From positions 1 through 57,001 of the forward strand of contig VXTP01000028.1 in assembly GCA_009837395.1 (NCBI GenBank): a DNA stretch of 57,001 nucleotides, written 5' to 3'. Source of the DNA: Gemmatimonadota bacterium (GTDB taxonomy: Bacteria; JAAXHH01). The notes under the pieces were generated by a model. That model worked only from the letters and a program-made list of their open reading frames with translations. It was not told where the DNA came from and ran no database searches. Of this stretch, positions 48,863 to 56,907 are shown piece after piece (position 1 is the first letter of the stretch; the number at the start of each line of letters is the position of its first letter). A program made the translations under genes and the position numbers.

Positions 48863-49444
48863 ATGCACCTAATCGTCGCCATCGTAGGCATGACCGGATC
48901 GGGAAAATCGACGGCCGCCGAATGCCTGGTCGACCAGGGCTGGCGCCACATCCGTTTCGGCCAGGTGACCATCGACCGGCTCAGGGCGGAAGGCCGGGAA
49001 GTGAATCCGGAGAACGAGAAGGAGATGCGGGAAGGGCTGCGGCGCGACCACGGGATGGGCGCCTTCGCGCTGCTTTCGCTTCCCGCCATCGAGGAAGGCC
49101 TGAAACACGGCCACGTGGTGATCGACGGGCTGTATTCTTGGTCGGAGCACAAGATCCTTAAAGAGACCTTTGGCGACCGCATCCACGTGGTGGCCGTGGT
49201 CTCTTCGCCGAAGACCCGCTACCGCCGGCTGGAGCACCGGACCCACGACGCGCGGACGGACCCACACTTCCGGATGCGCCCCCTCACGGCGGACGAAGCG
49301 CGAAAGCGGGACCACGCGGAGATCGAGAACATCGAGAAGGGCGGGCCCATCGCCATGGCGGATTTCACCATCGTCAACGAATCGGCCCCGCAGGACATGG
49401 TCGACGCCGTCCTGGCCTACGTAGATCGCTTCACCTCAACGTAA
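48863..49444 (+). CDS. P-loop nucleotide kinase-like protein (UPF0200-like)
   Basis: A 193-residue AAA/adenylate-kinase-like protein. Walker A is GMTGSGKST (Lys15). Later blocks FGQVTIDRLRAEG, ALLSLPAIEEGL, HVVIDGLYSWSEHKILKE and VVAVVSSPKTRYRRLEHR match the dephospho-CoA-kinase-like proteins best known from archaea (UPF0200) rather than bacterial CoaE. A kinase acting on a nucleotide or small molecule is likely. It is monocistronic behind a strong promoter; the 98 bp after it hold no gene. The family name is moderately sure. Confidence 0.75.
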   Translation: MHLIVAIVGMTGSGKSTAAECLVDQGWRHIRFGQVTIDRLRAEGREVNPENEKEMREGLRRDHGMGAFALLSLPAIEEGLKHGHVVIDGLYSWSEHKILKETFGDRIHVVAVVSSPKTRYRRLEHRTHDARTDPHFRMRPLTADEARKRDHAEIENIEKGGPIAMADFTIVNESAPQDMVDAVLAYVDRFTST

Positions 49445-49542: not shown

Positions 49543-50574
49543 TTACAGTGGCAGGGCGATGGCCTTGCCTTCCGACATGCTCCGGGTCACGGCTTCGGTG
49601 AATTCCATGTACTTGACCCCGACGTCGAAGGGCGTGTGGGACACCTTTTCCACCCCGAGAATGGCGTTGATGAATTCTTCTTCGACCCGCCATTCCCCGT
49701 GGTCTTCGGGCCTGATTTCGATTTCGGAAAGGGCGTCGTCTCCCCGGCGGGCTCCGTAGAGCTTGCTGTCGCCCATGCGGATCGTGCCCTCGCTGCCGTA
49801 GATCGTGGCTTCGCTCTCGTTAGCCAGGCCCTGTACGGTCGAGATCTTGACATAGGCCGACGCGCCGCAGATCATGTCCATCACGATGTCGATGTGCTCC
49901 GGCACTCTTACGGCGCGCATCACGCCCGTTTCGGCGTCGCGGCGCATCTTCGTGAAGGTCTTTCCCTGGGCGAAAACCGATAGCGGGTCCCCGACCCAGC
50001 GCCGCATGGCCTCGTACCAGATGCCCATGGTCATGACGTTCATCCCGCTGTAGTCGACGTTCTGCCGCCAGTGCATGGGACCGTCGCGGTCGATGAAGTC
50101 GCTGCCGGAGGAGCGGAGTTCCACGCTGAGGATCTCGCCCACGTAGCCTTCCGCGATCAGGCGCTGAATGGTCTTGTCCGCCCACAGCGTCATGGGGGAA
50201 GGCACGATCTGGGCGACGAGGTCCGGGTTATTCTGCGCGGCGTCGTGCATAAGCTGGGCCTCTTCGTAGTTCATGGCCATGCGCGCCTCGCACAGGATGT
50301 GCTTGCCGTTCGCCAGGGCCGCCATGCTCGTAGCGCAGTGCAGATAGGGCCAGGTCCCGACGACGATGGCGTCCGTATCCTCGGCCTCGATCAGTTCGGT
50401 CCACGTTTCGTAGACCGTCGGGATGTTGAACTGCTTCGCCACCCGCTCTGACGACGCGCGGCTGCGGTTGCACACGCTGACGATCTTCACGCCTTTAATG
50501 GCCTGCAGCTTCGGTATATGCATGGTCACGGTATTGGTGCCGGCGCCGACCACGCCTACCCGGATGGTTTCCAT
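49543..50574 (-). CDS. Gfo/Idh/MocA-like protein with altered EKP motif
   Basis: A 343-residue protein of the Gfo/Idh/MocA fold: Rossmann motif GVVGAGTNTVTMHIPKLQ, then a standard C-terminal domain with an ATIYGSEGTIRM segment. The catalytic-site motif normally reading EKP is Glu96-Ala97-Arg98 here (CEARMAMN), so the family lysine is missing. It may be inactive as a dehydrogenase, use another chemistry, or belong to a variant subfamily. ATG 50574 has AAGGGG 7 bases upstream; the longer frame to 50805 overlaps the neighbouring gene. It is the last gene of the eight-gene operon, 38 bp after the SGNH hydrolase. Confidence 0.85.
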   Translation of the reverse strand: METIRVGVVGAGTNTVTMHIPKLQAIKGVKIVSVCNRSRASSERVAKQFNIPTVYETWTELIEAEDTDAIVVGTWPYLHCATSMAALANGKHILCEARMAMNYEEAQLMHDAAQNNPDLVAQIVPSPMTLWADKTIQRLIAEGYVGEILSVELRSSGSDFIDRDGPMHWRQNVDYSGMNVMTMGIWYEAMRRWVGDPLSVFAQGKTFTKMRRDAETGVMRAVRVPEHIDIVMDMICGASAYVKISTVQGLANESEATIYGSEGTIRMGDSKLYGARRGDDALSEIEIRPEDHGEWRVEEEFINAILGVEKVSHTPFDVGVKYMEFTEAVTRSMSEGKAIALPL

Positions 50575-50612
50575 TTGTTTCCCCTTTTGGCCTGCTGGAT
50601 GAAGTTTAAAGA

Positions 50613-51605
50613 CTACGTTCTGCGCGCACGGATGATGTCCGCCAGGTTCCGCGCCATCTCCTCGAAACCGGCGGGCGCCGGATGCACGAGGTCCACCGTG
50701 AGGCCGGTGTTGGACCGGAGCATGGCGTCTCCCGGAATGTGAACGAGCTTCGGGCGGTTCAATTCCATCACCCGTTCCGCCACGATGGACCGGAAGGTCT
50801 CGCAATTTTCGACGCCCGTAAAATCATACCGGCACGGGAAGATGTCAATGCAGAAGATCCAGTCGTCAGGATGGGCGTCGGCGATCGTGGTCACGAAGTA
50901 CGCGACCCGGTTGTAAAACTCGTCCACGGTGAAGGACTGCACGACGTTGATGCCCATTTCCAGCGTGGCGAAGTGCCAGTCTGTCCGTCCGGCGATGTAA
51001 TCCGCCATGCCCCCTTCCAGGTGGGCGCCTCCGCCGAATCCCAGGTTGAAGAGATCGGTGCCCAGCAGCTCGGCGGTCCGTGCGGGGTACGTGCCCGTGG
51101 GCCGGACGGCCGTGCTGCCGTGGGTAATCGACGATCCGTAGGCCAGGTACCGGGTCTGCGGCGTCTGGTCCGGCCGCGGCAGCGACGTATCGCCTTCGAT
51201 GGAGACCAGGCGGACCGCGGGCCGCCACGGCAGGACCACCCGGGTGAGGCCGGTATCGAACCGCGCATCGGGCGGCGTAACCTGGCGCATGTCCGGTTCG
51301 GACTCGGGGCGCGCCACGACGATACGCGTCGGGTTCGCGTCGATGATGTGCAGGGCGCTGAAGAAATCGCCCTGGTACACTTCCGCGAGCGTCGGGCCGT
51401 CGGGGCTCTGGAGCGTGATGGCCGCTTCCGGTCCCTCCAGGTTGAAACGGATTTCGCATCCGGTAGCCTGCAGGGCGTTGTTCTTCGCCGATTCGTTCAG
51501 CGTCACGCGCAGGTCGTTCGGCACGCGGCAGCAGATACGGCCCGCGCCGCCGGGGTCGTCCAGCAGTTCGTGTACGTTATGCAGTTCGGCTTGTCCGAGA
51601 ATCAC
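50613..51605 (-). CDS. SGNH/GDSL-family hydrolase
   Basis: A 330-residue esterase-type protein with an N-terminal beta domain of about 150 residues before the SGNH fold, as in carbohydrate esterase-like proteins. The nucleophile is Ser159 in YGSSITHG. The C-terminal Asp305 and His308 are in DLVHPAPAG. The block III sequence is LEMGINV. No signal peptide is seen, so it acts in the cytoplasm. It could remove acetyl or other ester groups from a sugar or aglycone. Lies 28 bp after the amidohydrolase gene in the operon. Confidence 0.82.
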   Translation of the reverse strand: MILGQAELHNVHELLDDPGGAGRICCRVPNDLRVTLNESAKNNALQATGCEIRFNLEGPEAAITLQSPDGPTLAEVYQGDFFSALHIIDANPTRIVVARPESEPDMRQVTPPDARFDTGLTRVVLPWRPAVRLVSIEGDTSLPRPDQTPQTRYLAYGSSITHGSTAVRPTGTYPARTAELLGTDLFNLGFGGGAHLEGGMADYIAGRTDWHFATLEMGINVVQSFTVDEFYNRVAYFVTTIADAHPDDWIFCIDIFPCRYDFTGVENCETFRSIVAERVMELNRPKLVHIPGDAMLRSNTGLTVDLVHPAPAGFEEMARNLADIIRARRT

Positions 51606-51633
51606 GTAATCCTCCTGTCCTTAGATGCCTATC

Positions 51634-52383
51634 CTAAATGCCCAGCAGCCGGGCCGCGTTTTCGCCCAGTGCCATGCGTTTCGCTTCGTCGGAGATCCGG
51701 GCCGTGATGATCTTGCCGATCTGCGGCCGCGGGTCCATCAGGGGCATGTCCGATCCGTACAGCACGCGGTCGGCTCCGCCCTTTTCCACCAGTTCCTCGA
51801 TCACGCCGGGCGTCCGGTACGTCGAGCAGGTCTCCAGGTAGACGTTCGGGTACTTCTGCGCGGCGGCGATGGCCTCCGCGCGGGCCTCGGGCACGTTGCC
51901 GCAGTGGGCGGAGACGAAGTTCACCCGGGGGTAGGCCGGCGCGAGGTCTTCGAAGTAACGGGGCCGGCTGTTGATGAAGTGATCCGTGTGGAAGATGATG
52001 GCCAGCCCCCGGTCCTGGGCGAATTCATAGATCGGATGCCAGGGTTCCTCGTTGAAGGGCCAGGGCGTATAGGGCGGGTAGAGCTTGATGGCCGGAAACC
52101 CCAGTTTGTCGATCGCCCTCTCCAGTTCGGGTACCATCCGGTCGGGCATCGTCGGCGAGACATAGGCGAAACCCACGAAGCGGTCCGGGTTCCGGGCGAC
52201 GAATTTCGCCGTCAGATCGTTGCCCGTGGTACCGTCCGGATGAAATATGTGGAACAGGCACGCGACATCGATGCCGACGGCATCCATGGCCCCCAGGAGG
52301 AGTTCCGGATCGTCCACCATGCCGTACCGTTCCCACCGGCCAACGTGGCCGTGGTAGTCGATCACCCTCGTGCCGTCTATCAT
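51634..52383 (-). CDS. Amidohydrolase family 2 (TIM-barrel metal hydrolase/decarboxylase)
   Basis: A 249-residue protein like amidohydrolase-2 enzymes, which include ACMS-type decarboxylases and lactonases. A complete metal site is visible: His11-x-His13 (DYHGHVG), His132 (IIFHTDHF), His160 (SAHCGN) and Asp212 (YGSDMPL), with Lys100 in AIKLYPPY nearby. The ATG overlaps the stop of the upstream paralogue as ATGA, so the pair are translationally coupled. It is likely to catalyse hydrolysis or decarboxylation of a carboxylic acid or lactone. Confidence 0.87.
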   Translation of the reverse strand: MIDGTRVIDYHGHVGRWERYGMVDDPELLLGAMDAVGIDVACLFHIFHPDGTTGNDLTAKFVARNPDRFVGFAYVSPTMPDRMVPELERAIDKLGFPAIKLYPPYTPWPFNEEPWHPIYEFAQDRGLAIIFHTDHFINSRPRYFEDLAPAYPRVNFVSAHCGNVPEARAEAIAAAQKYPNVYLETCSTYRTPGVIEELVEKGGADRVLYGSDMPLMDPRPQIGKIITARISDEAKRMALGENAARLLGI

Positions 52384-53141
52384 GATGTCTCCGTGCGTCC
52401 GAGCAGCCGCTCGACGTTTCCGGCGCAGACCCGTGCTAGTTCATCCTCGCCCATGCGCGTGTGGTGCAGGTAGAACAGGATAGGCCCCATGGCGTACCGG
52501 GGGTACCACGAGCCGTAGACGAACCGTTCCGCACCGAACCGCTCCACGAGGGCCTCCACCTCGCCGATGGGTTCGTAGCGGCTGAGTTCCAGCACGGCAC
52601 GGGGACTCGCTTCCAACAGTCCGCGAACGACCAGCGCGTGGGTATAGTGTGCGCCGACGAGCACGGCGTGCAGGTCCGGATAGGCCTTGAGCGTTGTGAC
52701 CAGGTGGTCCGTTTCCACGTCCATAAGCGGGATCCAAAGCGGGATCCCGGCATCAGAAAGAAAGGTCAGGAGATCGTCGTAACCCCATGGCAGAAAGGGA
52801 AGTCCGGCGGACTGGCAATCGTGCAGCCGGACGGAACGCACCCGGCCCCGGCCGTGGAGTTCCGCGATCTGCCCCATGGAGGTTTCCACCGGCGCGACTG
52901 ACCACTGGGGGATCAGCCTGCCATCCTCGTCGAGCCAGTCCTCCAGGTACCGGTTGCCGTCCGTCGGACTGATCTGCTCACCCTGGGCGTGGTAGATCAC
53001 GGCGCGCTCGACCCCGTGGAAATCCATTTCTTCGAGCAGTTGCACCGGGCTCTGGCAGGGCGATGGTCCGGTATGGTGATTGCCCACGCACACATTCGCG
53101 TCGATGACGGGCACGCGGGGCGAGAAGTTCAGTGAGGACAC
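52380..53141 (-). CDS. Amidohydrolase-2-like protein with degenerate metal site (pseudoenzyme candidate)
   Basis: A 253-residue homologue of the protein encoded just downstream. The plan is the same (ending RFGAERFVYGSWYPRY), but metal-ligand positions are lost: the His-x-His is Asn16-Val-Cys18 (DANVCVGN), the second His falls in PLWIPLM without a His, and the Asp in GSD is Trp212 (GSWYP). Only His165 (GAHYTH) remains. It is unlikely to bind the usual metal, so a regulatory or structural partner of the next protein is possible. The start is GTG 53141. The frame is intact, so it is not a simple pseudogene. Confidence 0.8.
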   Translation of the reverse strand: MSSLNFSPRVPVIDANVCVGNHHTGPSPCQSPVQLLEEMDFHGVERAVIYHAQGEQISPTDGNRYLEDWLDEDGRLIPQWSVAPVETSMGQIAELHGRGRVRSVRLHDCQSAGLPFLPWGYDDLLTFLSDAGIPLWIPLMDVETDHLVTTLKAYPDLHAVLVGAHYTHALVVRGLLEASPRAVLELSRYEPIGEVEALVERFGAERFVYGSWYPRYAMGPILFYLHHTRMGEDELARVCAGNVERLLGRTETS

Positions 53142-53158: not shown

Positions 53159-54061
53159 TTATGACGATTCGGCATCCATGCCCGGACGGATGCCGAAAGA
53201 TTGGTCGAACGCTTCCCAGAGGTCACCTGGAATCGTCTCGGTGGCGGCCTCGTAGGCGTCATGGACGTGCCGGATGCTCGCCGGCCCGAACATGACGATG
53301 CTGTCCACCGGCGCCGCCAGGCAGAATTGTATGGCCAGGTGGCGGATGTTGACGCCGTGCTCACGGCACCAGGCCCAGATTCGATGGGCGCGCGGCTCGG
53401 ACCCGGGATGCATACCCCGCTCACGGTCCGGATCGGGCTCTTGTCCGGTCAGCAGGCCCATGCCCTGGACGCTGGCGAGGATAACCCCCGTTGACCGCCT
53501 CCTTGCCGCTGGAAAGATGGAGGCGGCGGCCGACTGGTTGACCAGGGTGTAGTCCAGGAAGGTCAGCGAAACGTCGCTGATGCCTTCGTCGATCAGCCGT
53601 ACGTGCCAGTCATGGGAACGGGCGCCGAGTCCTATATTCCTTACCACGCCCTGCGATTTCATTTCGCGCAGCACGTCGAAAACCGCGCCTTCGCGCAACA
53701 ATTCGTCCACATCGGCCGGATCGTGCACGAGCACGCAGTCGAGATAGTCTGTCTTCAGGGATCGCAGGCTCTGGTCCAGGCTCCACCTGGCGCCTTCCCC
53801 GGAGAAGTCCTTCCTGCGTTCCGGATGGGTACCGATCTTGGCCTGGAGATAGTAGGAGGATCGGGGCACGCCGGAGAGCGCCTCGCCCCATTTCTCCTCG
53901 TGGTGGCCCGGATAGGTATCGAAATAGTTGACGCCCAGTTCCAGGGCGGTCTGGATGGCCTCGACCGCCTCGGGGCTTTCGTGCAGGAAGGCGGCTCCCA
54001 TGGCCAGTGCCGCCGGACGCATGCCGGTTCGCCCGAACGAGCGGGCGGGTAGGTTGTTCAC
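53159..54061 (-). CDS. Aldo/keto reductase-like protein lacking the catalytic Tyr
   Basis: A 300-residue AKR-fold protein (LPARSFGRTGMRPAALAMGA). The tetrad Asp48 (YFDTYPGHHE), Lys75 (LQAKIG) and His113 (VLVHDP) is present, but the usual DTAxxYG reads Asp48-Thr-Tyr-Pro-Gly-His53, putting His where the proton-donating Tyr belongs (Tyr50 is three residues early). The gene has a normal length. It is 17 bp upstream of the degenerate amidohydrolase and 12 bp after the bicupin. Reduction of an aldehyde or ketone may be weak, or the chemistry different. Confidence 0.85.
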   Translation of the reverse strand: MNNLPARSFGRTGMRPAALAMGAAFLHESPEAVEAIQTALELGVNYFDTYPGHHEEKWGEALSGVPRSSYYLQAKIGTHPERRKDFSGEGARWSLDQSLRSLKTDYLDCVLVHDPADVDELLREGAVFDVLREMKSQGVVRNIGLGARSHDWHVRLIDEGISDVSLTFLDYTLVNQSAAASIFPAARRRSTGVILASVQGMGLLTGQEPDPDRERGMHPGSEPRAHRIWAWCREHGVNIRHLAIQFCLAAPVDSIVMFGPASIRHVHDAYEAATETIPGDLWEAFDQSFGIRPGMDAESS

Positions 54062-54073
54062 GTACGCTTTCGA

Positions 54074-55516
54074 TTAACGTCTGTCCGCATCAGGAGATTC
54101 GTCGTCCTCCCCTGTTTCGTCCTCCACGACGGTTTCATCTTCGTCTTCGATATCGAAGTCCGCGTCGTCGTCTTCCAGATCGAAATCATCGTCATCCGCT
54201 TCGGCTTTTTCTGAGGCTTCGGCCTGGTCCGCTTCGGCCACGTCTTCTTCTTCCGCTTCCGCGTCCTCGGCGTCTTCTACTGCCGCTTCCGGTTCGCTAT
54301 CATCGGTCGCCTCGGCGCTTTCCACTACGTCCTCCTCCGCGTCTTCCCCATCTTCGCCGTTGCCTTCCTCCACGACTTCGATATCCTCGTCGGCTTCGTC
54401 AGCTTCATACTCTTCGTCGGCCACTGCCGATTCGCCAGCCTCATCATCTATTCCGTCGCCGCCGGCCTCATCGTCAACGGCCGCTTCAACTGCCGCCTCC
54501 GCCTCATCCTCGGCCTCATCCTCATCTTCGGCCTCCGCCGACTCCACGTCATCGTCGACCACATCCTCGGCCTGCGCCGACTCCACATCATCGTCGGCTT
54601 CATCGTCGGTCCCGTCCTCCTCGATTTCCTCTTCGGTCTCCACCGCGTCGGCGTCGTCCCAATCGACCTCCGCCACCACGGCAGCCGCGGCTACATCCTC
54701 CACGCCGTACTCCACGGCCGGCTTTTCGGACTCCTCGAACTCGTCGGATTCGTCCGGCGCTTCGACCTCACCTACCTCGACCGCGAACGTGACGTACTCG
54801 AGCCAGCCCTCGCTTTGGTTGGCGAATCGATGGGCAACTCCGGGCAGTACGTGGGCCGCAGAACCTTCGGTGACCAGTTGGCGGTCCCCGTCAAGATCTT
54901 CGACGATGCCGAATCCGCTGAGCACGTAGTGGACCAACTCGATGCCATCCAACTGCTGCCAGTCGGTTCCCTGGCGTCCCTGGACCGCGTAGCGGGTCAC
55001 ACTATGCACGCGCTGGAGCACGCCGCCTTCGCCGGCAGGTGCATCCTCCTCGCGCCGCAGCAGCGGCCAGGAAACGGTGCCGCCTTCCAGCACGACCGGA
55101 TGGACGTCGCGCCAGTCCCGCACTGCGGGCGTGCCCTCCCGGATTTCGTCGAGCGGGCAACTGACGATCAGGTGTTCCATCCAGCCTTCGCCGTCGTTGA
55201 ACGCCTGGTGGGGTACGTTGACGGGCATGTAGACGGCCGTACCGTCCCGGACGTCCACCTTGTCGTCCCCGATCAGCAACTGGCCGCGCCCTCGGAGGAT
55301 GAAATACAACTGCTCGATGGCGTCGTGGTGGTGGTGGTCCGAGTGCTGGTGGCCCTGGAGCCCGTGCTTGACGAAGCTGTTGATGCCGTGCAGCCGGTTG
55401 ATTTCCGGCGGAGAGGTCGCGTCTTTGTCATGGGACTGGTACAGCGTCCAGACCAGCGCGCTGATATGCCCGACATAGGGCGCCTGATCACGCCAGTTTC
55501 GCACGCGGATGCTCAT
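54074..55516 (-). CDS. Bicupin protein with a long Asp/Glu-rich C-terminal tail
   Basis: A 480-residue protein. Residues ~48-120 form a first cupin: a His-rich strand HSDHHHHDAIEQLYFILRGR with the likely metal ligands, then VPHQAFNDG. Residues ~168-245 form a second cupin (ELVHYVLSGFG, LPGVAHRFANQSE). The remaining ~232 residues (about 248-480) are almost only Asp, Glu, Ala, Val and Ser, with only two Lys and two Arg; 40 of the last 71 are Asp or Glu. The tail is likely disordered and could bind metal or proteins. Cupins act as isomerases, dioxygenases or sensors; this one lies at the centre of the operon, 21 bp after the CoA-transferase gene. The tail is in one uninterrupted frame. Confidence 0.85.
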   Translation of the reverse strand: MSIRVRNWRDQAPYVGHISALVWTLYQSHDKDATSPPEINRLHGINSFVKHGLQGHQHSDHHHHDAIEQLYFILRGRGQLLIGDDKVDVRDGTAVYMPVNVPHQAFNDGEGWMEHLIVSCPLDEIREGTPAVRDWRDVHPVVLEGGTVSWPLLRREEDAPAGEGGVLQRVHSVTRYAVQGRQGTDWQQLDGIELVHYVLSGFGIVEDLDGDRQLVTEGSAAHVLPGVAHRFANQSEGWLEYVTFAVEVGEVEAPDESDEFEESEKPAVEYGVEDVAAAAVVAEVDWDDADAVETEEEIEEDGTDDEADDDVESAQAEDVVDDDVESAEAEDEDEAEDEAEAAVEAAVDDEAGGDGIDDEAGESAVADEEYEADEADEDIEVVEEGNGEDGEDAEEDVVESAEATDDSEPEAAVEDAEDAEAEEEDVAEADQAEASEKAEADDDDFDLEDDDADFDIEDEDETVVEDETGEDDESPDADRR

Positions 55517-55537
55517 GATGTCTCCTTTGGGATTCGG

Positions 55538-56698
55538 CTACTTCTCCCCGGTTCGGGATGCGTGTACTGCGCCAAGTTGTATCAGTCGGTCGATCTCGTC
55601 ATCATCGTATCCGGAATCCGAAAGCACCGATCGCGTATGTTCGCCTTTGACGGGAGGCGGAAGCGGGGCTTCGGACTCCTGCGTATCCGTGCGGTACGGC
55701 GCCCTGACCTGACGGCTTTCCGACCGGTCGGAAGCGACGAGATGGTAAAACGGGTTTCGATACTGTATATAAGGGTCGTCCGGTAACTCGTCAAGATGGT
55801 AAATAGGTGCGCATGGCACGTCGGCTTCGCGCAGCCTCCGGTCCCATTCCCGGCAGGATGCCGTGGCAAAAACGGCACGGAGTTTCTCCCTGATTTCGGT
55901 CTCCCGGTCCAGCCGTTTCTTCGAAGGCCAGTTCCGCCAGCCGTCCAGTCCCATGACATCGCAAAGTCGGGCCCAGAAATGGTCCTCGTGGACGATCCCG
56001 AGGCTGATGTGTCGGCCGTCCGAGGTCTCGTAGATCCCGTAATGGGAGATGTTCCCGAGGAACTGCCCACGGGCCGCCTCCGGATCCTGCGCCGCCGTGG
56101 CGATGTCGAGGGCCATCCAGGACAGGATGCAGTCGGTCATGGACAGATCGATGAAGCATCCCTCCCCCGTGGCCGCGCGCCGCATGAGCGCGGCGGAAAC
56201 GGCCAATGCGGCGTAAAGGCCGGAGGACAGGTCCGAAATCAGCACGGGAGGGACCGCGGGCGGATCGGCGCGTCCAAGCAGGCCGCCGATCGCGAGGTAG
56301 TTGATGTCGTGGCCGGCGCGGTCCCGGTAGGGGCCTTCCTGCCCAAAACCGGATATGGCGCAGTACACGACGGCAGGGTTCAGGCTTTTTGCCGCGGGAT
56401 AGTCCACGCCGAGCCGTTCGGCCACACCCGGCCGGAATCCTTCCAGCACGACGTCCGCCCGGCCGATCAGGCGGCTCATGACCGCCCTGCCCGCGTCCTT
56501 TTTGAGGTCGATCACGATGTTCCGCTTGCCGCGGTTGACGCTGGCGTACGCCGGGGGGAAACCGCGCAGGGGATCCCCGCCGGGCGGTTCCACCTTAATC
56601 ACCTGGGCTCCGAGATCGGCCAGCAGCATGGCACAGTAGGGACCCGGCAGTTGCGTGGTCAACTCCACCACCAGGCAGTCGGTCAGTGCGGGAATCAT
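55538..56698 (-). CDS. Family III CoA-transferase (CaiB/BaiF)
   Basis: A 386-residue CoA-transferase that moves CoA between carboxylic acids. VELTTQLPGPYCAMLLADLG opens the fold, KVEPPGGDPLR and SGFGQEGPYRDRAGHDINY are family blocks, and Asp156 in LISDLSSGLY is the expected catalytic Asp. Start ATG 56698 overlaps the stop of the small upstream gene as ATGA. It implies that the operon's pathway handles an acid through a CoA thioester. No acyl-CoA dehydrogenase or hydratase is in the operon, and the acid remains unknown. Confidence 0.9.
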   Translation of the reverse strand: MIPALTDCLVVELTTQLPGPYCAMLLADLGAQVIKVEPPGGDPLRGFPPAYASVNRGKRNIVIDLKKDAGRAVMSRLIGRADVVLEGFRPGVAERLGVDYPAAKSLNPAVVYCAISGFGQEGPYRDRAGHDINYLAIGGLLGRADPPAVPPVLISDLSSGLYAALAVSAALMRRAATGEGCFIDLSMTDCILSWMALDIATAAQDPEAARGQFLGNISHYGIYETSDGRHISLGIVHEDHFWARLCDVMGLDGWRNWPSKKRLDRETEIREKLRAVFATASCREWDRRLREADVPCAPIYHLDELPDDPYIQYRNPFYHLVASDRSESRQVRAPYRTDTQESEAPLPPPVKGEHTRSVLSDSGYDDDEIDRLIQLGAVHASRTGEK

Positions 56699-56907
56699 GG
56701 ATGCTCGGATGCTTCGTACAACGCGATGGCCAGCCCGTCGCGCCACGCGTCGAGCTGCTCCAGGTCGTATCCTTCGTCGCCGTGACGGTGCGTTGTTTCA
56801 GAGGCCGGCGATCCCTGGTCGTAGACGACGATGCACGGATCAGATCCGCGCGTTTCCACCGCCTTGAAGCCGGCGGGAGCGAGAGAGACGCGGCGGTCGA
56901 AATCCAC
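56695..56907 (-). CDS. Small protein coupled to the CoA-transferase gene
   Basis: A frame of about 70 residues (DFDRRVSLAPAGFKAVETRG, closing ALYEASEHP) with the stop overlapping the CoA-transferase start (ATGA). GTG 56907 is the best start, with GAGGGG just before it; TTG 56940 is an alternative. It is acidic and has one Cys in DPCIVVYD. I do not recognise a family. Coupling and continuous codon use argue that it is real. The ~95 bp upstream to the window edge are AT-rich and probably hold the operon promoter (weak TTGTGA-N17-TATTGC reading leftward). Confidence 0.5.
   Translation of the reverse strand: MDFDRRVSLAPAGFKAVETRGSDPCIVVYDQGSPASETTHRHGDEGYDLEQLDAWRDGLAIALYEASEHP

Follow-up and report, generated by a model that had tools for sequence, protein, structure and literature searches.

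Background

Long polyanionic disordered tails have been described mainly for eukaryotic nucleic-acid-binding proteins. In SSB, a folded core is joined by a variable disordered linker to a short conserved acidic tip, and some seed-storage 7S/11S globulins, which have the bicupin fold, carry acidic variable regions. The same succession of folded core, variable disordered linker and short conserved acidic tip makes up a working tail in E. coli Hfq (PMC5606850). C-terminal polyanionic disordered tails are also formed by the D/E-repeat IDRs of eukaryotic DNA/RNA-binding proteins of the HMGB1 type (PMC10250230), and the C-domain of calreticulin, a long acidic disordered C-terminus, binds about 20 Ca2+ per molecule with a Kd of about 2 mM (PMC5703715). 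The two-domain cupin fold itself is represented by the DUF861/(S)-ureidoglycine aminohydrolase group (EF2996, 1sef; DR1152, 1sfn; YlbA, 1rc6), and by OxdC, BacB and AerE.

Here we describe a bacterial bicupin that has this fold and ends in an acidic tail of 232 residues, to which the aligned cupin structures have no counterpart; moreover, its metal motif is intact in the first cupin only. Alignment and the AlphaFold model give it the variable disordered linker and conserved acidic tip of the Hfq and SSB tails, but its tail is far longer and more highly charged, its core is acidic and not a known nucleic-acid binder, and there is no homology. Unlike HMGB1 it is a metabolic cupin without a DNA-binding domain, and its D and E residues are interspersed with Ala and Val; the gene encodes no D/E run of nine or more. 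Calreticulin acts in the Ca2+-rich lumen of the ER, whereas the bicupin is presumably cytoplasmic. Ara h 1, vicilins and 11S globulins are among its Foldseek matches; these, however, are eukaryotic storage proteins without sequence similarity to the bicupin, which has retained a metal motif. In the open-access literature that we searched, no relevant paper reports a bacterial cupin with an acidic tail, though this does not prove that there are none. The gene offers a clear-cut bacterial example, in a small metabolic protein, of a tail in which charge is kept and sequence is free between two conserved flanking motifs, and the tailed and tail-less bicupins of one order form a natural series bearing on the origin of the tail and on its role for the enzyme.

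The bicupin gene and its two cupin domains

The gene lies near one end of the window, by which we mean the whole stretch of 57,001 nucleotides that was analysed. Our comparison covers sixteen genomes of one phylum, namely 12 of the same genus and four more distant ones (G012, G013, G014 and G015); the genus relatives include metagenome bins, and loci coinciding with those of the G genomes were counted once. The following features were assigned to the gene and its folded part.

54074..55516, minus strand: bicupin gene with acidic C-terminal tail, 480 aa (ORF; orthologues in 12/12 genus genomes)
55521..55528, minus strand: ribosome-binding site AAAGGAGA, read directly from the sequence
54773..55516, minus strand: two cupin domains, residues 1-248, confidently folded (Pfam, AlphaFold, Foldseek, tail-less relatives)
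55313..55333, minus strand: putative metal ligands H62, H64 and E68 of cupin 1, HxH(x)3E (invariant in 16 homologues)
55208-55210, minus strand: putative fourth ligand H103 of cupin 1 (invariant in 16 homologues)

The reading frame runs without ambiguity through 480 codons from an ATG at 55516, which a good ribosome-binding site precedes, to a stop at 54074-54076, and an earlier note on this DNA had described it, with its tail of about 230 residues, exactly as we find it. The first 248 residues comprise two stretches matching Cupin_2 (Pfam, E 7.2e-18), and the tail-less relatives' proteins stop in the region of residue 248. AlphaFold gives this core a pLDDT mostly of 80-96, about 90, and Foldseek aligns the model with 1sef (E 3.8e-14, TM-score by target 0.78). 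With two beta-barrel cupin domains recovered both by Pfam and by AlphaFold and Foldseek, the bicupin belongs to the cupin superfamily. The closest solved folds (EF2996, DR1152, YlbA, OxdC, BacB and AerE) nevertheless share only 10-15% identity with it. No family model fits, and assignment as (S)-ureidoglycine aminohydrolase (TIGR03214) was rejected at an NCBIfam score of 16.7 bits against a cut-off of 200. The sequence has no N-terminal hydrophobic stretch, so that an export signal is not evident.

The first cupin carries the metal motif HxH(x)3-4E ... H, and H62, H64, E68 and H103, putative ligands by analogy with the cupin motif, are unchanged in all 16 homologues. Within this motif lies a run, HSDHHHH, that had been put forward as unusual; since it is the canonical HxH(x)3E with a free residue 63, which is Q or R in other members of the genus, the run is an ordinary one. 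For the same reason, namely canonical motif and variable middle position, an unusual His cluster serving as a metal store was ruled out. In the second cupin the HxH is missing throughout the genus (QxL), while E193 and H229 are kept. The bicupin is read as probably an enzyme, with one putative metal site, in cupin 1.

In the most distant homologue (L107) both sites are retained, including that of cupin 2 (54773-55033 in the window), whose HxH is lost in the genus. Stepwise degeneration of one metal site appears to have taken place within the order.

Composition and reality of the tail

The tail (residues 249-480, 232 aa) is composed of 55 D, 65 E, 42 A, 23 V and 9 S, with 2 K, 2 R and neither His nor Cys. 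Its pLDDT lies below 50 nearly throughout, so that AlphaFold presents it as almost wholly disordered. As background for its acidity we took 1.2 Mb (about a third) of the genome of a sister member of the genus, G006, in which stop-to-stop ORFs of 150 codons or more number about 3,100. In that sample the orthologous tail is by far the most acidic stretch, well beyond what chance would give, with a net charge of -55 over its best 100 residues; the next most acidic ORF reaches -31 per 100 residues and the majority of the rest lie at -22 to -27, several of these acidic ORFs probably being non-coding frames. The proteins neighbouring the bicupin are ordinary in this respect (pI 5.0-7.6). The acidity is thus a property of this gene, as the earlier note had maintained, and a proteome of the halophilic type was ruled out, the acidity being common neither to the neighbours nor to the G006 sample.

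An orthologue with an acidic tail and no internal stop was found in each of the 12 genomes of the genus; 11 of these tails are present in full (224-325 aa), and the remaining one, in G005, is cut off where its contig ends. The cupin parts of these orthologues are 90-98% identical. A frameshift or assembly artefact, which tail-less close relatives could have betrayed, is ruled out by the open tails in 12/12 genus genomes. Because the relatives keep the charge and both ends of the tail, though not its middle, we conclude that the tail is real and selected.

Three parts of the tail under different constraint

Alignment across the genus divides the tail into three parts.

54605..54772, minus strand: conserved acidic linker, residues 249-304, with core AAVVAEVDWDDADAVETEEEIEE (alignment; omega 0.09-0.47)
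54212..54604, minus strand: acidic, disordered and variable middle, residues 305-435 (charge is kept, while sequence and length vary freely)
54077..54211, minus strand: conserved C-terminal cap, residues 436-480, DDDDFDLEDDDADFDIEDEDETVVEDETGED..SPDADRR (alignment; omega 0.12-0.44)

The linker and the cap are each about 75% identical with few gaps, a figure to be read with the caution that low-complexity acidic sequence appears conserved more readily than ordinary sequence. The cap has the acidic-hydrophobic pattern DDFDL..DFDIEDEDE..RR, in which D453, F454, D455, I456 and the terminal RR are invariant in all 11 complete tails. Across the genus the middle ranges in length between 122 and 223 aa, with about 38% identity over aligned residues, and part of this length variation is accounted for by species-specific tandem repeats with periods of 9-81 bp, all multiples of 3. 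Despite this divergence its net charge per residue is held at -0.49 to -0.63.

In seven close pairs, omega (Nei-Gojobori) is 0.06-0.10 for the cupins, against the values listed above for the linker and the cap; that of the middle rests on an uncertain alignment. Linker and cap are under purifying selection. Where at least one member of a pair has an acidic codon in the cap, 52 of 64 differences fall at the third position (p about 4e-15, binomial test against 1/3, where p is only a guide as the pairs share ancestry), and 23 of these 52 are transversions, that is, changes between D and E. This indicates that acidity is under selection, and the choice of D versus E much less so.

Neither cap nor linker matched any other gene of G000, G006, G001, G012 or G013 at E up to 1, which rules out a tag common to other proteins in these five genomes.

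Distribution across genera

Beyond the genus, the bicupins of G012 (same family) and of G014 and G015 (same order) have no tail and end right after cupin 2. In G013 (same family) the bicupin does have an acidic tail, which consists of tandem repeats of 37 aa (111 bp). By eye, homology between the cap and these repeats (DIDLDVVED..) looked plausible; it was rejected when the shuffle test proved non-significant, 597 of 2,000 shuffles scoring as high. As the cap shows no significant similarity to the G013 tail, a docking tip, if real, would be restricted to one genus. A search for plasmid relatives found none. Sponge-associated Latescibacterota have been described (PMC12993501), and we infer a sponge origin for the bins of the genus.

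The G013 gene is split over two contigs, at the end of L105 and the start of L125 (C142, C64), and the break interrupts its tail.

Gene neighbourhood

The bicupin gene stands in a run of genes of the same orientation.

55538..56746, minus strand: CoA-transferase family III gene, upstream, conserved neighbour (Pfam; synteny)
53159..54061, minus strand: aldo/keto reductase, downstream, conserved neighbour (Pfam; synteny)
49543..53141, minus strand: two amidohydrolases, GDSL esterase and Gfo/Idh/MocA oxidoreductase (Pfam; synteny)

The reductase starts 12 nt past the bicupin stop, and the order CoA-transferase III, bicupin, aldo/keto reductase, amidohydrolase, amidohydrolase, GDSL, Gfo is kept in every genus locus that is long enough to show it. 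These Pfam families suggest that the cluster serves the catabolism of sugar-like acids or lactones. In G013 the CoA-transferase adjoins the tailed bicupin, and the aldo/keto reductase lies downstream of the end of the tail with one ORF of about 200 codons between them. In G012 bicupin and reductase lie on separate contigs, in other surroundings, and no CoA-transferase orthologue was found there; G014 and G015 have this orthologue on a contig other than that of the bicupin. Tail and cluster may therefore go together, an association that is weak because there are just two tailed lineages and the contigs are fragmented.

Two smaller observations concern the cluster in the window. At 50570-50805 the Gfo/Idh/MocA reading frame, taken at its longest, shares about 190 bp with the GDSL gene; as the Pfam match begins at residue 81, the true start is probably an internal ATG (METIRVG). 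At 48863-49444, on the plus strand and thus opposite to the cluster that contains it, lies a small P-loop kinase-like gene with a weak resemblance to PRK08356 and to a stretch of an anti-phage dCTP deaminase model (E 1.1e-7, well short of the cut-off).

Possible roles of the tail

The reading that we favour, tentatively and as possible rather than probable, is that the protein combines a bicupin that has a metal site with a disordered, polyanionic tether, whose linker and cap would dock a partner in the manner of Hfq and SSB; the acidic-tip tail of Hfq is the nearest parallel in mechanism (PMC5606850). A cytoplasmic bicupin of a CoA-transferase/aldo-keto reductase/amidohydrolase/Gfo-type catabolic cluster would have gained a long polyanionic disordered tail. 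The middle of this tail would act as a stretched, self-repelling tether in which charge density alone matters, the linker and above all the acidic-hydrophobic cap would form the docking tip, and the charge may also keep the protein soluble and extended. Recruitment of the operon's enzymes, as proposed in the earlier note, survives in part. Recruitment through charge is harder to sustain, since the cluster includes no basic protein (pI 5.0-6.4; adjoining permease 7.6) and its mildly acidic members offer no evident electrostatic receptor; because the conserved cap and linker resemble binding motifs, docking to a partner of some kind is still the preferred reading.

An unlikely but realistic alternative is that the tail serves solubility, as an entropic bristle: its negative charge would do no more than keep a bicupin prone to aggregation in solution and away from proteins and nucleic acids, without specific docking. 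A middle that keeps its net charge and neither its sequence nor its length is what such a bristle would look like, and designed disordered tags have been reported to raise solubility (PMC11066018). A bristle, however, does not need ends conserved residue by residue, F454, I456 and the RR included, and tail-less bicupins occur in the same order.

We consider it improbable that the tail is a cation buffer, in which 120 carboxylates would bind many divalent ions at low affinity and thereby supply the metal site of cupin 1 or shield it. The constant charge density of some 120 D/E residues and the interchangeability of D and E are consistent with it, and calreticulin provides a precedent for low-affinity cation binding (PMC5703715). 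Against it, affinity in the millimolar range would be of little use at the low free Ca2+ of the cytosol to a protein lacking an export signal, and the conserved hydrophobic residues of the cap are left unexplained. No tail matches the EF-hand consensus, and an RTX-like GGxGxD occurs once, in the window's copy only and in none of the orthologues, so that a Ca2+-binding protein of the EF-hand or RTX-repeat type (repeated GGxGxDxUx) was rejected. Of the two suggestions made earlier on this point, binding of Ca2+ or another cation thus stands only in the generic, low-affinity form that 120 carboxylates would allow; metal storage for a His-rich cupin falls, the cupin motif being generic and the tail having neither His or Cys nor an EF-hand.

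More doubtful still is a reading of the tail as a polyelectrolyte scaffold that would organise the cluster enzymes or a metabolic condensate, through cap and linker, in the cytoplasm of sponge-associated Latescibacterota. If true, it would make the tail of a bacterial cupin an enzyme organiser based on an IDR.

It is highly improbable that the tail is autoinhibitory or mimics nucleic acid, its tip folding onto basic residues of the core or competing with nucleic acid or a polyanionic substrate. Such action is known for Hfq, where the tip sits on a variable linker (PMC5606850), and for the D/E repeats of HMGB1 (PMC10250230), but the cupin core of this protein is acidic too (pI 5.5, net charge -15) and Pfam finds no nucleic-acid-binding domain. 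Least probable of all is that in-frame expansion of tandem repeats at the gene's 3' end produced a mostly neutral tail, tolerated because it does no harm: much of the change in length can be traced to the repeats, whose unit in G013 is 111 bp, but linker and cap are under selection, the charge of the middle is constant, and 12 genus genomes show neither stop nor frameshift although the middle has diverged so far.

Two further acidic or complementary sequences came to our attention. A second stretch of the genome with consecutive D/E codons was set aside as an ordinary internal acidic run of an apparent translation initiation factor IF2. On the plus strand, at 54007-54792 of the window, an Arg/Pro-rich ORF of 261 codons runs antisense to the tail; the best explanation is that it shadows the GAN codons of the opposite strand.
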